Position numbers and translations under genes: made by a program
Notes under the pieces: generated by a model
Databases searched by the model: none
What the model saw: only the letters and a program-made list of their open reading frames with translations
What the model was told of the DNA's origin: nothing
Part shown: piece by piece, positions 22,340 through 32,660 of the stretch
Layout: each line of letters opens with the position of its first letter
Numbering within the stretch: position 1 is the stretch's first letter
Origin: Desmonostoc muscorum LEGE 12446
GTDB lineage: Bacteria > Cyanobacteriota > Cyanobacteriia > Cyanobacteriales > Nostocaceae
DNA length: 64,000 nt
Assembly: GCF_015207005.2 (NCBI RefSeq)
Contig: NZ_JADEXS020000001.1
Coordinates: 4,898,001 to 4,962,000 of the forward strand
Reading direction: 5' to 3'

Positions 22340-24784
22340 TTAGTCCTGTGCAAGAACATTGCTAACTCCATCTCCGAACAGATGTGGTGGAATCTGCTCT
22401 TTTGGCAAGAGTAAATTATCAATCAGTTCTTCTCGCAAACCTTTAATAGTGTAGCGACTTTCTTGAATGCAATCCAACAAAAGATTACTGACATAAAGGT
22501 AGTTATCTAGAGCTTTGGTATCCTCTTCTGAAAATTGCACATCATAACCAATATCTAGCTGTTCAAGCATTACATTTTGTAAGTCATCTGCCCACTGTTG
22601 CCATTCTGAGGTTGAATTCCTATTGGAAGGTTGACGAGATTGTAAAAATTTTAAGGCATCTGCTAAATTAACATTACTATTTTCTGTGGCGATATTAATC
22701 GTTTCCTGTAATTTAGACTCAAGGGTAAAATTCTCATCAACCTCTAAACGGTTTTGAATAAACTTACTAGATTCGTAAATTTTCCAACTTTTATTAGATG
22801 CCTTATCACTAGCAAAATTATGGATAACTGACAAGTTTTTTGTAACTAAGTCTTTATAATTTCTATGTATGATTTTGTTGTATTTTGTGTTAATCTCTCT
22901 CAGCTTGATAGAAAGGCTTTCGGCTGTATTACGGTCTATATTTATTTCATTATTAATATATAAGTCTGTATCTAGATCTATCGTTAAGTACAAAGCTCTC
23001 CACGAACTAGATGAAAGCTCTAATGTCTTTGTTGTTAGTTTATATAGCCATTTCAGCATTTTTTGTAATTCATCACTTTTAACTAGTTCATTTGCATAGT
23101 AAAAAATTAATTTTATAAAATCGTCAGCATCAGCCTTGGGAAATCGACAAGCAAGAATTACAAATACTTCTCGCCAATGAGAATCTGTTAAATGTTGTTT
23201 TAAAATCTGGTTTAAAAGACCAGGAACACGGCTTTCATATATATATTGAGCGGTAAAATACTCCTGAAAAGTTAAATGCGAGAAAGCATAAATTCCTTGA
23301 GCTTGCTCAGCAATAAGACCATGATGCATCTCAAGAGATTTCAAAAATAATTGGCTATCATCATGCAATTTATGAGGTTCAAATCCATCAATATTTTCAA
23401 TATATTTACTAATTTTTGCTCCTAACTCAAACTTATGCCATAGGTATTTTTGTGGTTTTTGGATAAAAGCATCATATGCTATTTCTCCTAAGATATTAAT
23501 TTTTAGATGACGTGATAGTTTGTATGACGAAGTTGTGTCATGTTGTATTTTACGACTAGTATCCCACCTTTTTAATAGTACTTCTACTGCGTCTTGATAT
23601 AGCTGATATCTATTTATAGGTAAATCATAATCATCCCCAGCAACCAAACATAACAGAGTTAGTAATAATGGATTTTTTGCTAATTGTTTGATAGATGGAT
23701 TTTCATTTAACCTCCGCAAAAAATTTTCTAATTTATCCTGATTTGGGCTTTTGCTAAACCATTTATTTATAAAAGCTTCTATTTCTTGATCGTCAAAATC
23801 TGCTATCTCTACTTCTACGAATTTTTGAAAATTATATTCACAAGCTGCATGACGACAAGTAATAATCATATAATTTTTACTATACCTTTTATTGAAATCC
23901 TCGATACTTTTATGTACATCATCAGTATCTCTAGCTAAAACTTCATCTAAGCCATCTAATAAAATCAAGCATTTACCCTTGTCCAAGTAGTCTATGATTA
24001 ATTGGTCTACATCGCTCCGAATATGTTTTAATTGTTCGGGAATCCATTGAGCAAACTCTTGAAGAATACAATTAAATAAGCTTTGTCTGTTTTCAGATTC
24101 TGCAAATTTTTTCAGCGATATAAAAAAGGGCAAAGGTTTTTCTGATGTATCCTCCTGTTCGGTAAAACCATGCATGGCTATATACTTTAAAAAAGTAGTT
24201 TTACCTGCTCCTGCCATCCCCCATATCATCAGCCTTTGGTGTTTTTTTACTACGTCTAGACCTGGAACCCCTTTTTGGTGGACTATCTGACCAAATCTGT
24301 TACAATCTAGACTATTATCTTCTAATTCTTGTATACTTTTTGCTCGTTGTCCTTTGATACTTTCAATAATATTTACCTTGATAAAAATATCGTCCAAAGA
24401 AATAGGTTCTCTCATGGATAATACTTTGACAGTGTTACATTCTTTGATTAGATGCTCTAGATAAGAATCTAACCAGCTTTGTTGTACAAATCTAGATGCA
24501 GTTCCAGGAGCAAATTTTTTTACTGCTTGTTGATAACTTGTACATTCTTTTAGTAAAACAGTGCATAAGTAGTTCAGATTTTTCTCCTGCGTCTTGGGTG
24601 TAGGTAAGGTGTTGAAAAAGTTACGTATTGTTCTCTCTGAAATCAAATGCTCATGTTCAGCAAGGGGGTATGGAGATTGCAAATCAAGCTTTGACATGAG
24701 ATCCTTGAGAGAACCTCCAAATTTTTCGCTATAGGCCTGTTTAAGTTCGTTAAACACTTGCTGATTAACTTCAATTGCTGCCAT
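22340..24784 (-). CDS. NACHT-domain NTPase with N-terminal HTH-like region
   Basis: An 814-aa STAND NTPase of the NACHT type. The N-terminal about 90 residues (SERTIRNFFNTLP, NLNYLCTVLLKE) look like a helical/HTH-type module, then comes a linker. The NTPase has Walker A GMAGAGKT (189-196), Walker B LILLDGLDEV (273-282, with the extended acidic NACHT form) and a sensor Arg in ITCRH (about 311). Typical winged-helix and helical-domain landmarks follow (NPLLLTLLCLV, FSHLTFQEYFTAQYI). The last 250 residues are helical and lack clear LRR or TPR units. Bacterial NACHT proteins are known to include anti-phage sensors; this role is inferred. The codons are more AT-rich than in the flanking mdh gene. 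Confidence 0.88.
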   Translation of the reverse strand: MAAIEVNQQVFNELKQAYSEKFGGSLKDLMSKLDLQSPYPLAEHEHLISERTIRNFFNTLPTPKTQEKNLNYLCTVLLKECTSYQQAVKKFAPGTASRFVQQSWLDSYLEHLIKECNTVKVLSMREPISLDDIFIKVNIIESIKGQRAKSIQELEDNSLDCNRFGQIVHQKGVPGLDVVKKHQRLMIWGMAGAGKTTFLKYIAMHGFTEQEDTSEKPLPFFISLKKFAESENRQSLFNCILQEFAQWIPEQLKHIRSDVDQLIIDYLDKGKCLILLDGLDEVLARDTDDVHKSIEDFNKRYSKNYMIITCRHAACEYNFQKFVEVEIADFDDQEIEAFINKWFSKSPNQDKLENFLRRLNENPSIKQLAKNPLLLTLLCLVAGDDYDLPINRYQLYQDAVEVLLKRWDTSRKIQHDTTSSYKLSRHLKINILGEIAYDAFIQKPQKYLWHKFELGAKISKYIENIDGFEPHKLHDDSQLFLKSLEMHHGLIAEQAQGIYAFSHLTFQEYFTAQYIYESRVPGLLNQILKQHLTDSHWREVFVILACRFPKADADDFIKLIFYYANELVKSDELQKMLKWLYKLTTKTLELSSSSWRALYLTIDLDTDLYINNEINIDRNTAESLSIKLREINTKYNKIIHRNYKDLVTKNLSVIHNFASDKASNKSWKIYESSKFIQNRLEVDENFTLESKLQETINIATENSNVNLADALKFLQSRQPSNRNSTSEWQQWADDLQNVMLEQLDIGYDVQFSEEDTKALDNYLYVSNLLLDCIQESRYTIKGLREELIDNLLLPKEQIPPHLFGDGVSNVLAQD

Positions 24785-27672: not shown

Positions 27673-28353
27673 TTGTCAAAAAATACACTAAATATGACAT
27701 CAAAAAACACAACCCAAACCATAACTCGTGTGCTTTTAGCTTTGTGGGATTTGGGAGGAATTCAGCAGCAAGTTAGTAAAGGTGTACTCACGAAACGAAT
27801 TGTATCCAAAAATAAAAAGGTAGCAGATTATCAAGGCATATTCGAGGAATTACAGAACCAAGGAGCGATCGCCATTTCCAAAAAGGGATATTCTCTCATA
27901 TCTCCCAAGGGTTTAGAGGTATTGGGTGACGGTTTGAGGAGTGGTGATTTTAAGTTTGAAGGGACGATTGTCGGAACTTGGGCGGCGAATGCGTTGGTGA
28001 AATGGATTGGTGAAATTGGTGTTGCGGTAGGTAGTGCAGATGTATCAGTCAATGGGAAGAGTGTGGCGATCGCTTCTTATGAGGAGTTTAAGTCAGTGGC
28101 GTTGGAAGTTTACGACAAGTTGAACTATGAGTACAACTTTAATCATCTGGTGCCAATTTATCGGATTAGGAGAGTAATCGGCGATCGGGTGAGTCGGACA
28201 GAGTTTAATGATTGGCTACTGGAAACGCAAGCTAACGATATTTTGCAACTACAGGGCGGGAGTGTAGAAGACAGCGCACCCGACAAAATTGAAGATTCGG
28301 TAGCTACAGAATTAGATGGATTACGCTGCTACGCCACGCGCCTGAAACCTTAA
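27673..28353 (+). CDS. winged-helix-like protein, first gene of the ATPase-nuclease operon
   Basis: A 226-aa protein of unknown family. Residues about 15-85 (VLLALWDLGGIQQQVSKGVL, then ISKKGYSLISPKGLEVLGDG) look like a winged helix with a beta-wing. The rest is mixed helix and strand with YNHLVPIYRIRRVIGDRVS. It begins at TTG 27673 or ATG 27694. It ends 38 bases before the ATPase gene on the same strand. In context a DNA-binding or regulatory subunit for the following ATPase and nuclease is inferred. No catalytic motif is visible. Confidence 0.65.
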   Translation: MSKNTLNMTSKNTTQTITRVLLALWDLGGIQQQVSKGVLTKRIVSKNKKVADYQGIFEELQNQGAIAISKKGYSLISPKGLEVLGDGLRSGDFKFEGTIVGTWAANALVKWIGEIGVAVGSADVSVNGKSVAIASYEEFKSVALEVYDKLNYEYNFNHLVPIYRIRRVIGDRVSRTEFNDWLLETQANDILQLQGGSVEDSAPDKIEDSVATELDGLRCYATRLKP

Positions 28354-28391
28354 ACCTTATTTAACTCTTCACACATTAACTTCACAACACT

Positions 28392-30254
28392 ATGACTGTC
28401 ACCACATCTACGATTGATGATCTAATTAAAAATCAAAATCCCTTTGCAGGCCATATTCTGGTCAGACCACCCCAAATCTGGGGTAAAAGTTTTCCTGATG
28501 TTCCCTTAATTAATGCTCATGCTTCTAATGCAGTTTTTGATGCTATTGATAAAGTCCGTAAAGGAAAACGTGAAACTGTAGGTATCACAATTACAGCAGA
28601 AAAAGGGTTAGGTAAAAGTCATATTATTAGTCGGATTCGCCACCAATTACAGACCGAAGATATTAGCTTATTTATCTATATGAGTAAGTATGATAACTTG
28701 AATCAAATTAAGTCTCTATTCCTGCAAAGTGTCGCATCTAGTCTGAGAGCTTTTGGTAGTCAAAAAGTAATGCAATGGCAGGAAATTGCAGCAGCTTTAA
28801 TTAACGAAGCAAAACAGTGGCGATATACGCCTCAACAGTATATTAGTATGTATCCAGGTTGGTTAAGCAAACACTCAACTAAGGCGATAGTTTATTTGAC
28901 AGAAAGTGTTCTGAAAATCAAGCCCGAAATAACCAATCCTTACATAGTGAAAGCAATTTTGTGGACACTTTCTCCAGTCCATATTAATTATGCAAGCTAT
29001 TGGTTATCTGGTTTGGAATTAGCACAATCACAAGCTGAAGAAATGGGATTACCAAATCCTAAAAGCGAGGATAAGGAAGCTGAAGCACTAAGCACAGTGC
29101 GTCAAATTCTAGATATCACTAGTTATTATCGAGTTCCAGTGATTTGTTTTGACGAATTAGATATATATGATACTGCTGATAATGGATTTTTAGCAGCACA
29201 ACTTATTGCAAGCTTAGTTAAGGATTTATATAACAGTCTCAAACAAGGTGTTTTACTGTTAGCAATGTATCCTCGTACTTGGGAAGACCAAATCAAGACT
29301 TTACCACAAGCTGAAGCAGTTATAGATCGATTAGTAAGCGATCAAGCTGACAGACAGCCTATAAAATTAAACTTTCTTAATTCTGATGATATCGTTGCTA
29401 TAGTTAGTCAATGGTTACAAGATTTTTATGAGGAACATCAACAAACTGCACCTCATCCTCTCTACCCATTTGATGAAACTAAACTCAGAGAACTTGGTAA
29501 GAGTAGACCTACAGTTAGGTCAGTTTTGAAATGGTGTGCAGAGAATTTTGTACCTCCTTTAATACCGCCTTCACCACCTGCACATCCAGTTAAACCGTAT
29601 TTCGATAATGAATTAGCAAATGTTGAGACTTCTATCGATTCATTAATGCAAGAAGAACAAACAATTACTGATGCTCTTTCGCTCGCTTTCAATAGTTTAA
29701 TAGGTAAAACTTTAGAGGGAGTAACAATCGAATCAATTGAAGAAATAGAGCCTAGTGCAGTAAATAATGGTTTTATGGATTTCAAAATTATCGGCAATAA
29801 TAAAAAAGTGAAGATTGGAGTAGATGTAGTTCAGCAAGATCGCACGGTTATCGGTGCTGCTTTGGGACGATTAATTGATTACAAAACATTCGACATAACT
29901 CGTGGTTGTTTGGTGCGTTCAAAGAAAATTAATTCAGGTGCAAAATTAGCTAGAGAGAATTTGAGAATACTGTTGCAAAATAAGGGTGGAGAGTGGGTAG
30001 GTTTGCAAAGCCAAGACATTAAACCTCTACTGGCGATATTATTCGTTTACCATAACCGTGAAAGCTACGAACTGACAGAAGAACAGATTTTTGATTTTAT
30101 TGAGCAAAAGCAACTAGCAATCAATAATCCTTTGATTCGAGAAATTCTCAGCGATCCTTCTGGGCAAGAACCTACTAATTTAACTGATGATGGATTACCT
30201 ATTAGTATTCCTCAAAGTGTTACTACTGGCGATTACGTTGAACTAAATCTATAG
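28392..30254 (+). CDS. P-loop ATPase, second gene of the operon
   Basis: A 620-aa AAA-like/P-loop NTPase. Walker A is TAEKGLGKS (about 68-76) and Walker B VICFDELD (250-257), as in BREX-, Dnd- and KAP-type defence ATPases that read GLGKSH. A long helical insertion lies between them. The C-terminal third (about 460-560) has a strand-rich block with GFMDFKIIGNNKKVKIGVDV and GRLIDYKTFD that could be a nuclease-like or DNA-handling fold. The gene begins 38 bases after the first gene and ends 10 bases before the nuclease gene. Role inferred: ATP-driven recognition or loading of DNA for the nuclease. Confidence 0.75.
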   Translation: MTVTTSTIDDLIKNQNPFAGHILVRPPQIWGKSFPDVPLINAHASNAVFDAIDKVRKGKRETVGITITAEKGLGKSHIISRIRHQLQTEDISLFIYMSKYDNLNQIKSLFLQSVASSLRAFGSQKVMQWQEIAAALINEAKQWRYTPQQYISMYPGWLSKHSTKAIVYLTESVLKIKPEITNPYIVKAILWTLSPVHINYASYWLSGLELAQSQAEEMGLPNPKSEDKEAEALSTVRQILDITSYYRVPVICFDELDIYDTADNGFLAAQLIASLVKDLYNSLKQGVLLLAMYPRTWEDQIKTLPQAEAVIDRLVSDQADRQPIKLNFLNSDDIVAIVSQWLQDFYEEHQQTAPHPLYPFDETKLRELGKSRPTVRSVLKWCAENFVPPLIPPSPPAHPVKPYFDNELANVETSIDSLMQEEQTITDALSLAFNSLIGKTLEGVTIESIEEIEPSAVNNGFMDFKIIGNNKKVKIGVDVVQQDRTVIGAALGRLIDYKTFDITRGCLVRSKKINSGAKLARENLRILLQNKGGEWVGLQSQDIKPLLAILFVYHNRESYELTEEQIFDFIEQKQLAINNPLIREILSDPSGQEPTNLTDDGLPISIPQSVTTGDYVELNL

Positions 30255-30264
30255 CTAATTATAA

Positions 30265-31659
30265 ATGAATCAGCTGTTCTCAATTCCAACAGCACTGTGT
30301 CTACCAGCCCCTGATATTGAAGCCTTAATACAGGGGCGAACAATTGCAGCTTTACCTAAGATGTTTATTCGTCCTGGGCAGAGATTTGCACTTTATCCTA
30401 CTGACTCTTCAGTTTCAATTAAAGCTTGGGCTAAATGTGAACTTTGTCAAATTTTAGACGAGACTAAGCCATTAGATATTTTGTCTAAATTAACAATATG
30501 GACACCAAAAGCGCTAAAAGAGATACTACGGCAACAAGAGTACCTTTTTTTAACTTACTTGCGTGTCTATCAATTACCTCAGTTACAAGAAATACCAGTT
30601 AATCCTAACATTCAGGAAAAGTTAGGGAAATTTGTTAGTTTACCTAATTCTCTAACGGTTTCTGAAGACAAGCCAATATTAAGCGATCGCACTTTCGCTC
30701 AACGCAAGCACCAACTAGAAAAATTAGAGCCACCACTACATCCTGAGCTTGAAGAATTACAAAGTGCGATCGCACAGTTATCTAATACAAACTCAAATGC
30801 ACAGCAACTAGATAATGACATCAAAATTTTTCTAGGTTGGAATAGTAGAAAACTAGAAACTCTACCAGATTCAGATTTAGTTTGGGTTCAAAAAATTGCT
30901 GAAATTGGAAACTCTAGCGACGGACATACATTTGAAAAATTAGTTCGTAGAGGATTACTAAAATTAGGCTTTACAGGCTCAGGTTTAAATCCAGATGCAA
31001 CTGGTGGCGCGGGAGGTATGGATTTTTACACTGAACATCCTTATCCAATAGTAGGAGAGTGCAAGGCAACTAAAACTGAGAAAGTTACTGATGGTACTCC
31101 TGCACAGTTATTAAAAATAGGTATGAACCATCTTGGTAAATTTCAATATGAAAATTCTCTGAAATTAATTGTAGCCGCTGGAGAACTAAATTTTTACGCC
31201 CTGAGAACAGCAACCGAAAATCAAATGAATGTTATTAGCCCTGAAACTCTACAAAAATTAGTTGAACTGCAAGCACATTACAAAAATTCTATCAACTTGT
31301 TAGAATTAAAAGAGTGTTTACAACAAAGTCCTTTTGGTTTAGCCGAAGATAAAGTTAATAGTTATATCGATAAAGTTGAGCAATCTATAAAGTTGCGATC
31401 GCAGATTACTATAGCAGTCAAAGAACTCTCTGAACAAGACAACGAAAATCCAAAAGCTACACACCAGAATTTCACAGTTACAGAAATTCGTGTTCATTAC
31501 AATGCCACTCATAATCCCAAACTAACTGATGAGATAGTTCACGATTTATTGATAGAACTTTCTTCACCATTAACAGGCTATTTAGGACGAATTAAAGGTA
31601 GTGATTGGAAGAGCGATCGCTTTTACTTTCTACGCGATTTATCAACGAACCTAGAATAA
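30265..31659 (+). CDS. PD-(D/E)XK endonuclease-like protein (DUF1802-like), third gene of the operon
   Basis: A 464-aa protein. An N-terminal part (about 1-110) with AALPKMFIRPGQRFALYP resembles the cyanobacterial DUF1802 family. A restriction-like nuclease core follows: Glu224 (HTFEKLVRRGLLKLGF), Asp253 (GGAGGMDFY) and Glu265-x-Lys267 (VGECKATK). The D-x11-ExK spacing and the conserved upstream helix match Mrr-like PD-(D/E)XK enzymes. A long helical C-terminus ends the protein. Ten bases separate it from the ATPase gene, so the pair should work together. Nuclease activity is predicted from motifs only. Confidence 0.78.
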   Translation: MNQLFSIPTALCLPAPDIEALIQGRTIAALPKMFIRPGQRFALYPTDSSVSIKAWAKCELCQILDETKPLDILSKLTIWTPKALKEILRQQEYLFLTYLRVYQLPQLQEIPVNPNIQEKLGKFVSLPNSLTVSEDKPILSDRTFAQRKHQLEKLEPPLHPELEELQSAIAQLSNTNSNAQQLDNDIKIFLGWNSRKLETLPDSDLVWVQKIAEIGNSSDGHTFEKLVRRGLLKLGFTGSGLNPDATGGAGGMDFYTEHPYPIVGECKATKTEKVTDGTPAQLLKIGMNHLGKFQYENSLKLIVAAGELNFYALRTATENQMNVISPETLQKLVELQAHYKNSINLLELKECLQQSPFGLAEDKVNSYIDKVEQSIKLRSQITIAVKELSEQDNENPKATHQNFTVTEIRVHYNATHNPKLTDEIVHDLLIELSSPLTGYLGRIKGSDWKSDRFYFLRDLSTNLE

Positions 31660-31685: not shown

Positions 31686-32081
31686 TTAACCCCAAGTCAA
31701 GATGCCAGCTTGATAATTAGCCACCAACGGCAGAATCTTTAGCCATTCTGAACCTAATAATATTTCTGTAATTTCATCACCTGCGATAACTGAAATCTCA
31801 TACTCTTGTCCATTTAATTGCACATTATCTAAATACAAATCAAAAATTTTTTCACCCTGTGCAGTTCGTAGTTCTTGCTCACGAATAAATTGCCAATCTA
31901 GAGAATCTAAATCTTGTTTATTAATAGCTAAAAAGCCTGTGAAACCAGTGTCTAACATAGCATCCACAGGCAGATTTAATCCATCAGATGTAATCAAATC
32001 AATTTCAAAAAATAGCTGACCATTGCTACCAAAGATACCCTGAATCATATTGTACCAGTGGCTCCAGTTTGATTCAGGCAA
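31686..32081 (-). CDS. retropepsin-like aspartyl protease
   Basis: A 131-aa single-domain clan AA protease. The catalytic motif AMLDTGFTGF (Asp44-Thr-Gly46) and the later hydrophobic-hydrophobic-Gly element ILLGSEWL match retropepsin-type folds. Such small proteases act as dimers. Its start overlaps the end of the next upstream gene by 37 bases on the same strand, so the two are translationally coupled. Common in cyanobacterial genomes as paired genes; the substrate is unknown. It lies tail-to-tail with the nuclease operon, 26 bases apart. Confidence 0.82.
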   Translation of the reverse strand: MPESNWSHWYNMIQGIFGSNGQLFFEIDLITSDGLNLPVDAMLDTGFTGFLAINKQDLDSLDWQFIREQELRTAQGEKIFDLYLDNVQLNGQEYEISVIAGDEITEILLGSEWLKILPLVANYQAGILTWG

Positions 32082-32362
32082 AACATGCAGTGTACAGCAT
32101 TTGGGTGTTTTTCGCGTGCTTTCTGGCTAGCTACTTCTATATCTTTATCAATGAAATAATCTCCACTATCTGGCTCCACTGCAATATACCAGCCATAGTG
32201 TTCTTCGATATATTCTGGACGCACACCCTCGAATATTGCACGACAACGCTGATGAAATACTTCCCTTTCAGCTTTACGCCTAGCAAGTTCTTCTGGTGAT
32301 AAAGTGCGTTCTGGAAAGATTCTACCTCTACGTGCAGGTTGTTTTGCAGTTGATTCAGTCAT
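32045..32362 (-). CDS. conserved protein paired with aspartyl protease
   Basis: A 105-aa basic-then-acidic protein. The N-terminus is rich in Lys/Arg (PARRGRIFPERTLSPEELAR) and the middle holds EHYGWYIAVEPDSGDYFIDK, a motif familiar from small cyanobacterial genes placed just before DTG proteases. No catalytic motif is seen. It overlaps the protease gene by 37 bases in a different frame. A role as chaperone, inhibitor or substrate of the protease is possible but unproven. TA-like behaviour cannot be excluded. Confidence 0.7.
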   Translation of the reverse strand: MTESTAKQPARRGRIFPERTLSPEELARRKAEREVFHQRCRAIFEGVRPEYIEEHYGWYIAVEPDSGDYFIDKDIEVASQKAREKHPNAVHCMFCLNQTGATGTI

Positions 32363-32660
32363 AGTAATTAACTTAATTTCTTAATTCTGGCTTAACTTTA
32401 TTTTACAGAAAGATAAAGGCGATCGCTTTTACTTTCAGCGATCGCTGCTCAACCTAACCGTAGGTGGTTGTTGCTTTTTTTTATCAGTATCTTTGATTTA
32501 TAGTGATAAACTTTACAAAAAATTCATACTTAGCCACTGTGTAATTTCATTTACATCAGATAATCAATCAAATACTGTCGAAGAGTCTTCTTATACTGAC
32601 TACACTGGTATTCACTAATTACAATTCATTAGCAAGTTGAAGACTTAGGAAAGATGAATT
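32363..32660. other. intergenic region between divergent genes
   Basis: About 300 AT-rich bases with two HIP1-type GCGATCGC sites near 32420-32447 and no gene. It separates the protease pair (minus) from the Nif11-repeat gene (plus). Confidence 0.5.

Follow-up and report, generated by a model that had tools for sequence, protein, structure and literature searches.

An exchangeable FokI-type nuclease domain in a conserved three-gene cyanobacterial operon, a candidate modification-sensing restriction-like system

A 64,000-nucleotide stretch of the Desmonostoc muscorum LEGE 12446 genome (contig NZ_JADEXS020000001.1, positions 4,898,001 to 4,962,000; hereafter, the window) carries three consecutive genes encoding a small winged-helix-like protein (gene 1), an AAA+ ATPase (gene 2) and a protein that joins a DUF1802 region to a restriction-type nuclease (gene 3), together referred to as the triad (Table 1). 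The triad is a conserved unit, within which the catalytic domain of gene 3 has reassorted relative to the rest of the operon. This reassortment is the most surprising result of our analysis, and it is independent of any reading of the triad as a restriction system. As to function, we give a probability of roughly 0.5 to the triad being a modification-sensing, ATP-dependent, restriction-like defence complex. An earlier interpretation made from the DNA letters alone (the sequence-only reading) had proposed a defence-type operon; the gene unit, the motifs and the folds support that proposal, while a NACHT partner gene and proximity to a defence island do not.

Re-derivation of the coordinates bore out three same-strand open reading frames (ORFs) with gaps of 38 and 10 bases. 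We analysed the best 80 of the 164 loci from a one-genome-per-species scan (81 with the window), all 80 of them cyanobacterial. In 75 of these gene 1 immediately precedes gene 2, in 72 gene 3 immediately follows it, and in 70 of the 80 both hold, so the arrangement is not a chance one. Where gene 1 or gene 3 is missing, the sequence breaks off at a contig end in three loci; both partners are absent from L086 and gene 3 from L097. Only genes 1 and 3 adjoin gene 2 nearly always: the next commonest neighbour cluster is present at 34 of the 80 loci, there is no conserved third partner among them, and the claim that no methyltransferase accompanies the triad thus stands.

Among 145 genomes drawn evenly from the class, one of them the window's own, strong matches to all three genes (at E ≤ 1e-50 with genes 2 and 3, and at roughly 1e-29 or below with gene 1) occurred in the same 32, and no genome had strong matches to only one or two; the three genes thus form a unit. 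A few of these carriers have a gene broken or ended by a contig end (for example, gene 2 of G038 is in three pieces), and G046 carries gene 1 on a different contig from the rest of the triad. Outside the 32 carriers, the weaker matches are distant ATPases, lone DUF1802 proteins and fragments, plus one distant gene 1 relative in G084 (224 aa, 27% identity). Presence is patchy in the class. Within the window's family, the Nostocaceae, 161 of 192 genomes give a match, 142 of them a strong one (E ≤ 1e-50), and among the matches listed 8 of the 142 strong carriers have only a partial gene 2. The closest named homologues are from Nostoc. Gene 2 had no match in plasmids and viral contigs, and gene 3 none in phages.

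Sequence and profile searches of the PDB with genes 1, 2 and 3 returned nothing useful; only fold comparison (Foldseek), for which we predicted the structures of genes 2 and 3, was informative. The intact Walker A and Walker B motifs ascribed to gene 2 are present, with G72, K75, C252 and D254 invariant in 79 aligned rows. Residues 1–394 are predicted to form an AAA+ core of the ORC/Cdc6/TnsC type: TnsC and MuB are among the best fold matches of the model, and ORC/Cdc6 matches are equally good. Judging by the order of strands and helices in the model, residues 422–540 may be a degenerate PD-(D/E)XK fold; inactive restriction endonuclease (REase) domains paired with nucleoside triphosphatases (NTPases) often sense nucleotides in immunity, according to a BREX survey (PMC12839542).

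The N-terminus of gene 3, described earlier as DUF1802-like, is a clear Pfam member (PF08819; 117.8 bits against a curated cut-off of 25, E 6e-34). By sequence, the nuclease part gives a sub-threshold Mrr_cat match (E 0.024). The model folds into an ASCH/PUA domain, a FokI-type nuclease and a winged helix; the nearest relatives of the nuclease by fold are the DNA cutters FokI, N.BspD6I and HindIII. Relatives of the ASCH domain among the fold matches include ZmASCH, which acts on RNA, and YqfB, which acts on nucleosides. The predicted catalytic motif is intact: E224, E265 and K267 show no variation over 73 rows, and in a set of 71 rows all carry these three residues and 70 carry D253. One of the 73 gene 3 homologues matches ZorD, weakly. 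Cyanobacterial genomes also contain lone DUF1802-like proteins of about 190–250 aa, matched only by the N-terminal part of gene 3 (e.g. G087:C66:51620, G040:C3:304364 and G011:C1:1411258). In the open PMC literature, DUF1802 turned up in one paper, a soil network study.

The winged-helix assignment of gene 1 is carried by weak matches in a few of its 74 homologues (DUF6293_C in six, SelB-wing_2 in six), while the window protein itself has no Pfam family. DNA identity of the window to L128 and L130 falls inside gene 1, at about position 28190, and the covariation of the part beyond with gene 2 (Table 1) suggests that residues 160–219 may contact gene 2.

The reassortment is apparent from pairwise identities over 66 rows (the window and 65 loci), in which, as in the clustering at 70% identity, row L073 joins genes from different tandem copies. 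Linked controls correlate well: r = 0.93 for the two halves of gene 2, 0.86 for the gene 1 C-terminus and gene 2, 0.82 for the halves of the nuclease domain and 0.77 for the halves of M3, a module covering the first half of the winged helix. Against these, the nuclease domain correlates with gene 2 at r = 0.10 (bootstrap 0.05–0.16), M3 with gene 2 at 0.14 and the nuclease domain with M3 at 0.10. The same pattern is visible in individual pairs, where identity shifts at sharp edges. L053 shares 79–97% DNA identity with the window in gene 2 and the DUF1802 part, 66–72% in the linker and 54–63% in the nuclease domain; L130 shows the opposite, with 49–72% in gene 2 and 87–94% in the nuclease domain. 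Forcing a four-segment fit on ten pairs places most breakpoints near residues 170 or 209–214, 374–386 and 424–428; the first is in or beside the linker that precedes the nuclease, and the second is near the domain border at 372/373. Faster evolution of the nuclease domain was considered as the cause of the discordance and rejected: 17 of 55 pairs with at least 85% identity in this domain share at most 50% in gene 2, and the nuclease halves agree with each other.

We then assigned nuclease types by nearness, X being like the window and Y like L053. The types are about 40% identical and both keep the catalytic residues; they divide in two a set that is graded and forms 11 clusters at 70% identity. 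On a quick tree of gene 2 with 71 rows, from which L073 was excluded (as it was from the neighbour-cluster tests), nuclease type changes 23 times, compared with a mean of 22.6 in 500 label shuffles, and M3 type 18 times (shuffled mean 18.3); in contrast, gene 2 type changes just twice on an equally quick tree of the gene 3 N-terminus (62 rows; shuffled mean 19.9). Statistically, nuclease type thus shows no linkage to the remainder of the operon, with X and Y mixed randomly. Among the 27 neighbour clusters in the fetched flanks we saw no linked immunity gene tracking X or Y (best uncorrected p 0.048).

Tandem copies offer a further view of the two types. Double triads are found at L073, L074, L083 (plus a partial gene 3) and L104, and a triple triad at L112. 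In a comparison that left out the third copies of L083 and L112, four of the five copy pairs have opposite nuclease types (39–49% identical), and the L112 pair is 85% identical. At three loci a second gene 3 with a degenerate catalytic motif directly follows the first (L084 13455–14888, L085 11584–13020, L111 13607–15040); from their sequences, these pairs are perhaps active and inactive partners of a nuclease heterodimer.

At least one of mutM, ndhO and pgi lies in the fetched flank of 44 of the 80 loci, on both sides in 26; a 94-aa neighbour protein is NdhO. The recurrence of these flanks means that many triads occupy one core-genome slot, around which the small genes vary among loci. The 38 of the 44 slot loci with usable rows comprise 11 A-X, 15 A-Y, 1 B-or-other-X and 11 B-or-other-Y combinations, and the presence of both X and Y in a single chromosomal slot is most simply read as exchange in place. 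We read the mosaicism as that of a restriction-like system under strong diversifying selection. More tentatively, and at somewhat worse than even odds, X and Y would constitute a phylum-wide two-type nuclease polymorphism in linkage equilibrium with its own operon and swapped in situ between genera. Such a polymorphism would parallel, in bacteria, the trans-species balanced polymorphisms of immune or recognition loci, and the operon around it would represent a new class of restriction system, built of three genes and sensing modification.

How might such a complex work? Gene 2, an AAA+ ATPase of the ORC/TnsC type, would assemble on DNA in partnership with the winged-helix protein of gene 1. 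Gene 3 would dock on gene 2 and, in a step that may be gated by ATP, its ASCH/PUA-like domain would scan invading DNA for a modified nucleotide; the FokI-type domain would cut nearby, probably as a dimer, with the winged helix holding the DNA. No methyltransferase would be needed if the mark being read is one absent from the host. An ASCH-like reader joined to a FokI-type nuclease would thus readily account for how such a system spares its host. Phage counter-measures against the nuclease could keep at least two nuclease types circulating, with homologous recombination reshuffling them in place.

Evolution of a conflict-like kind argues for this defence reading: nuclease type is unlinked, triads are doubled or tripled with opposite types in most pairs compared, presence is patchy and partial copies of gene 2 occur. 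Location gives it no support. We compared 148 of 242 neighbour ORFs with 148 of 304 control ORFs (all at least 100 aa) from 20 triad-bearing genomes, 19 of them outside the window's family, scoring PADLOC family matches at E ≤ 1e-8. No defence enrichment beside the triad was seen in this sample, with PADLOC families numbering 36 in neighbours versus 54 in controls; the neighbours include type I and type IV restriction matches, the controls Csm3 and SAVED genes. Defence thus remains plausible on the basis of architecture and evolution.

The best surviving alternative, although an unlikely one, is a housekeeping DNA repair or recombination complex of filamentous cyanobacteria, with gene 2 loading on DNA and gene 3 making cuts where a base is damaged or modified; strong matches in just 32 of 145 genomes speak against it, and free exchange of the nuclease domain and some partial copies would be unusual for repair enzymes. 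Also improbable is action of the same complex on RNA, plasmids or incoming single strands, with the ASCH domain reading an RNA modification or merely binding nucleic acid. ZmASCH and YqfB fit this view, as does the RNA-directed McrBC-type branch, CoCoNuTs, predicted in PMC11090510, but the nuclease has DNA cutters as its nearest relatives, and the gene 3 winged helix and the ORC/TnsC-type ATPase suggest duplex DNA. We consider it rather doubtful that the triad is a self-recognition or kin-discrimination locus through which lineages of unlike type harm each other's DNA, for example upon transformation or filament contact. Two types spread across many genera in linkage equilibrium with their own operon are what frequency-dependent recognition loci would be expected to show, and most tandem pairs compared hold one of each; against this, no neighbour cluster is clearly tied to nuclease type. 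TnsA is likewise a PD-(D/E)XK nuclease with a winged helix, and TnsC and MuB rank high for gene 2, but a domesticated Tn7-like module that has lost its transposase and now serves targeting or recombination is very improbable given the equally good ORC/Cdc6 matches, the type IIS enzymes as best matches of gene 3 and the lack of a third conserved neighbour as candidate transposase at the 80 loci, where neighbours were not searched singly for transposases.

If the modification-sensing defence reading is right, the triad is a widespread, unnamed cyanobacterial restriction-like system that tells self from non-self by a base mark and not by a methyltransferase. Diversifying exchange would then act on its catalytic domain instead of on a separate specificity subunit, and the system could help to explain transformation barriers in filamentous cyanobacteria. 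DUF1802 would gain a predicted fold and role, and the question would be raised of which pressure maintains two nuclease types across genera.

Table 1. Features of the triad and its surroundings in the window.
Feature	Position	Strand	Remarks
Gene 1, small winged-helix-like protein	27694..28353	+	219 aa from ATG; 226 aa from TTG at 27673
Gene 1 C-terminal part, aa 160–219	28171..28350	+	evolves with gene 2 (r = 0.86)
Gene 2, AAA+ ATPase, predicted ORC/Cdc6/TnsC type	28392..30254	+	620 aa
Walker A, TAEKGLGKS (K75)	28593..28619	+	gene 2 sequence and alignment
Walker B, VICFDELD (D254, E255)	29139..29162	+	gene 2 sequence and alignment
Gene 3, predicted reader–nuclease–winged helix protein	30265..31659	+	464 aa
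ASCH/PUA-like domain = DUF1802 region, aa 1–135	30265..30669	+	
FokI/N.BspD6I-type PD-(D/E)XK cleavage domain, aa 200–372	30862..31380	+	E224, D253, E265, K267
Exchangeable module M2, about aa 210–379	30892..31401	+	type X in window; breakpoints; unlinked to gene 2
C-terminal winged helix, ORC-like, aa 373–464	31381..31656	+	
Exchangeable module M3, about aa 380–428, first half of winged helix	31402..31548	+	
Orphan copy of gene 3 3'-end motif	32419..32443	+	3 mismatches to motif drawn from gene 3 end; 0 matches in 100 shuffles

In the window, the NACHT and NCH2 gene at 22340–24784 is genuine by family match, but it is no recurrent partner: its cluster contains the window protein alone among the 81 loci, and we rejected it as a triad partner for want of a clustered homologue at the other 80. 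In the region described earlier as an AT-rich accessory block, GC content is 33–34% across the NACHT gene and 36–38% across the triad, but the intervening 2 kb reach 43.5%. Behind the triad, a minus-strand pair (31686–32362) encodes a protein resembling aspartyl proteases and another of 105 aa that belongs to no family; the pair is found close to the triad in some two dozen loci, at times two to three times in succession, and the orphan 3'-end motif sits beyond it. Elsewhere, gene 3 is followed by small gene modules, several of toxin–antitoxin type (PIN, ParE, DUF433, nucleotidyltransferase), with copies of a stretch of some 75 bp from the 3' end of gene 3 (YLGRVKGDG..GDRFYYLRDLP) coming after them in steps of roughly 0.35–0.85 kb. 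Such arrays are seen at L141 (12099–14000), L145 (8020–5700, minus), L148 (8067–7300, minus) and L140 (11995–12910), with weaker remnants at L057, L058, L078, L091, L125 and in the window; G144 and G076 have the repeats yet no strong triad match. With this layout the modules resemble cassettes threaded along a repeat that recalls an attachment site.

Among the top-ranked papers in searches of the open PMC literature, we found no description of the triad. Of the known systems, it shares with modification-dependent (type IV) endonucleases a predicted PUA-superfamily reader, a fused nuclease with an intact catalytic motif and the lack of a cognate methyltransferase in the unit. MspJI, EVE-HNH (VcaM4I) and SRA fusions similarly fuse a PUA-superfamily reader to a nuclease without a methyltransferase of their own, and MspJI appears at ranks 9–10 of the Foldseek list for gene 3 (E 3e-3, TM just 0.20). 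The triad differs from these in its ASCH-like DUF1802 reader, FokI-type cleavage domain and extra winged helix, in its two partner genes, including an ORC/TnsC-type ATPase, and in its shuffled nuclease module. McrBC spreads an AAA+ NTPase, a PD-(D/E)XK nuclease and a base reader over the genes of an operon. The triad combines the same elements, but its reader is on the nuclease subunit, its ATPase is nearest ORC/Cdc6/TnsC and a third, winged-helix gene is present; McrB and McrC gave no match to the window proteins in Pfam, NCBIfam and PADLOC, though a distant kinship may exist. FokI and N.BspD6I differ in that the triad has an ASCH-like N-terminus in place of the recognition part, an ATPase partner and no methyltransferase partner, the 80 loci holding no third conserved neighbour that could be the cognate methyltransferase of a type II restriction–modification system. 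With BREX the triad shares an ORC/Cdc6-class ATPase, and in some BREX relatives ASCH/PUA domains serve as reader modules and inactive REase domains occur, according to the same survey (PMC12839542); the triad is far smaller, with no PglZ phosphatase or PglX methyltransferase as a conserved partner at its loci. Genes 1–3 of the window have no PADLOC match at E ≤ 1, the hallmark proteins of Wadjet, Zorya and Dnd/Ssp included. In hsdS, specificity domains are shuffled by recombination within a conserved frame. The triad, like hsdS and like polymorphic toxin systems (PMC3482391), has a variable domain exchanged by recombination in a conserved frame; with no linked immunity gene found, it differs from both in that what is exchanged is a restriction-like catalytic domain and, separately, half of a winged helix.

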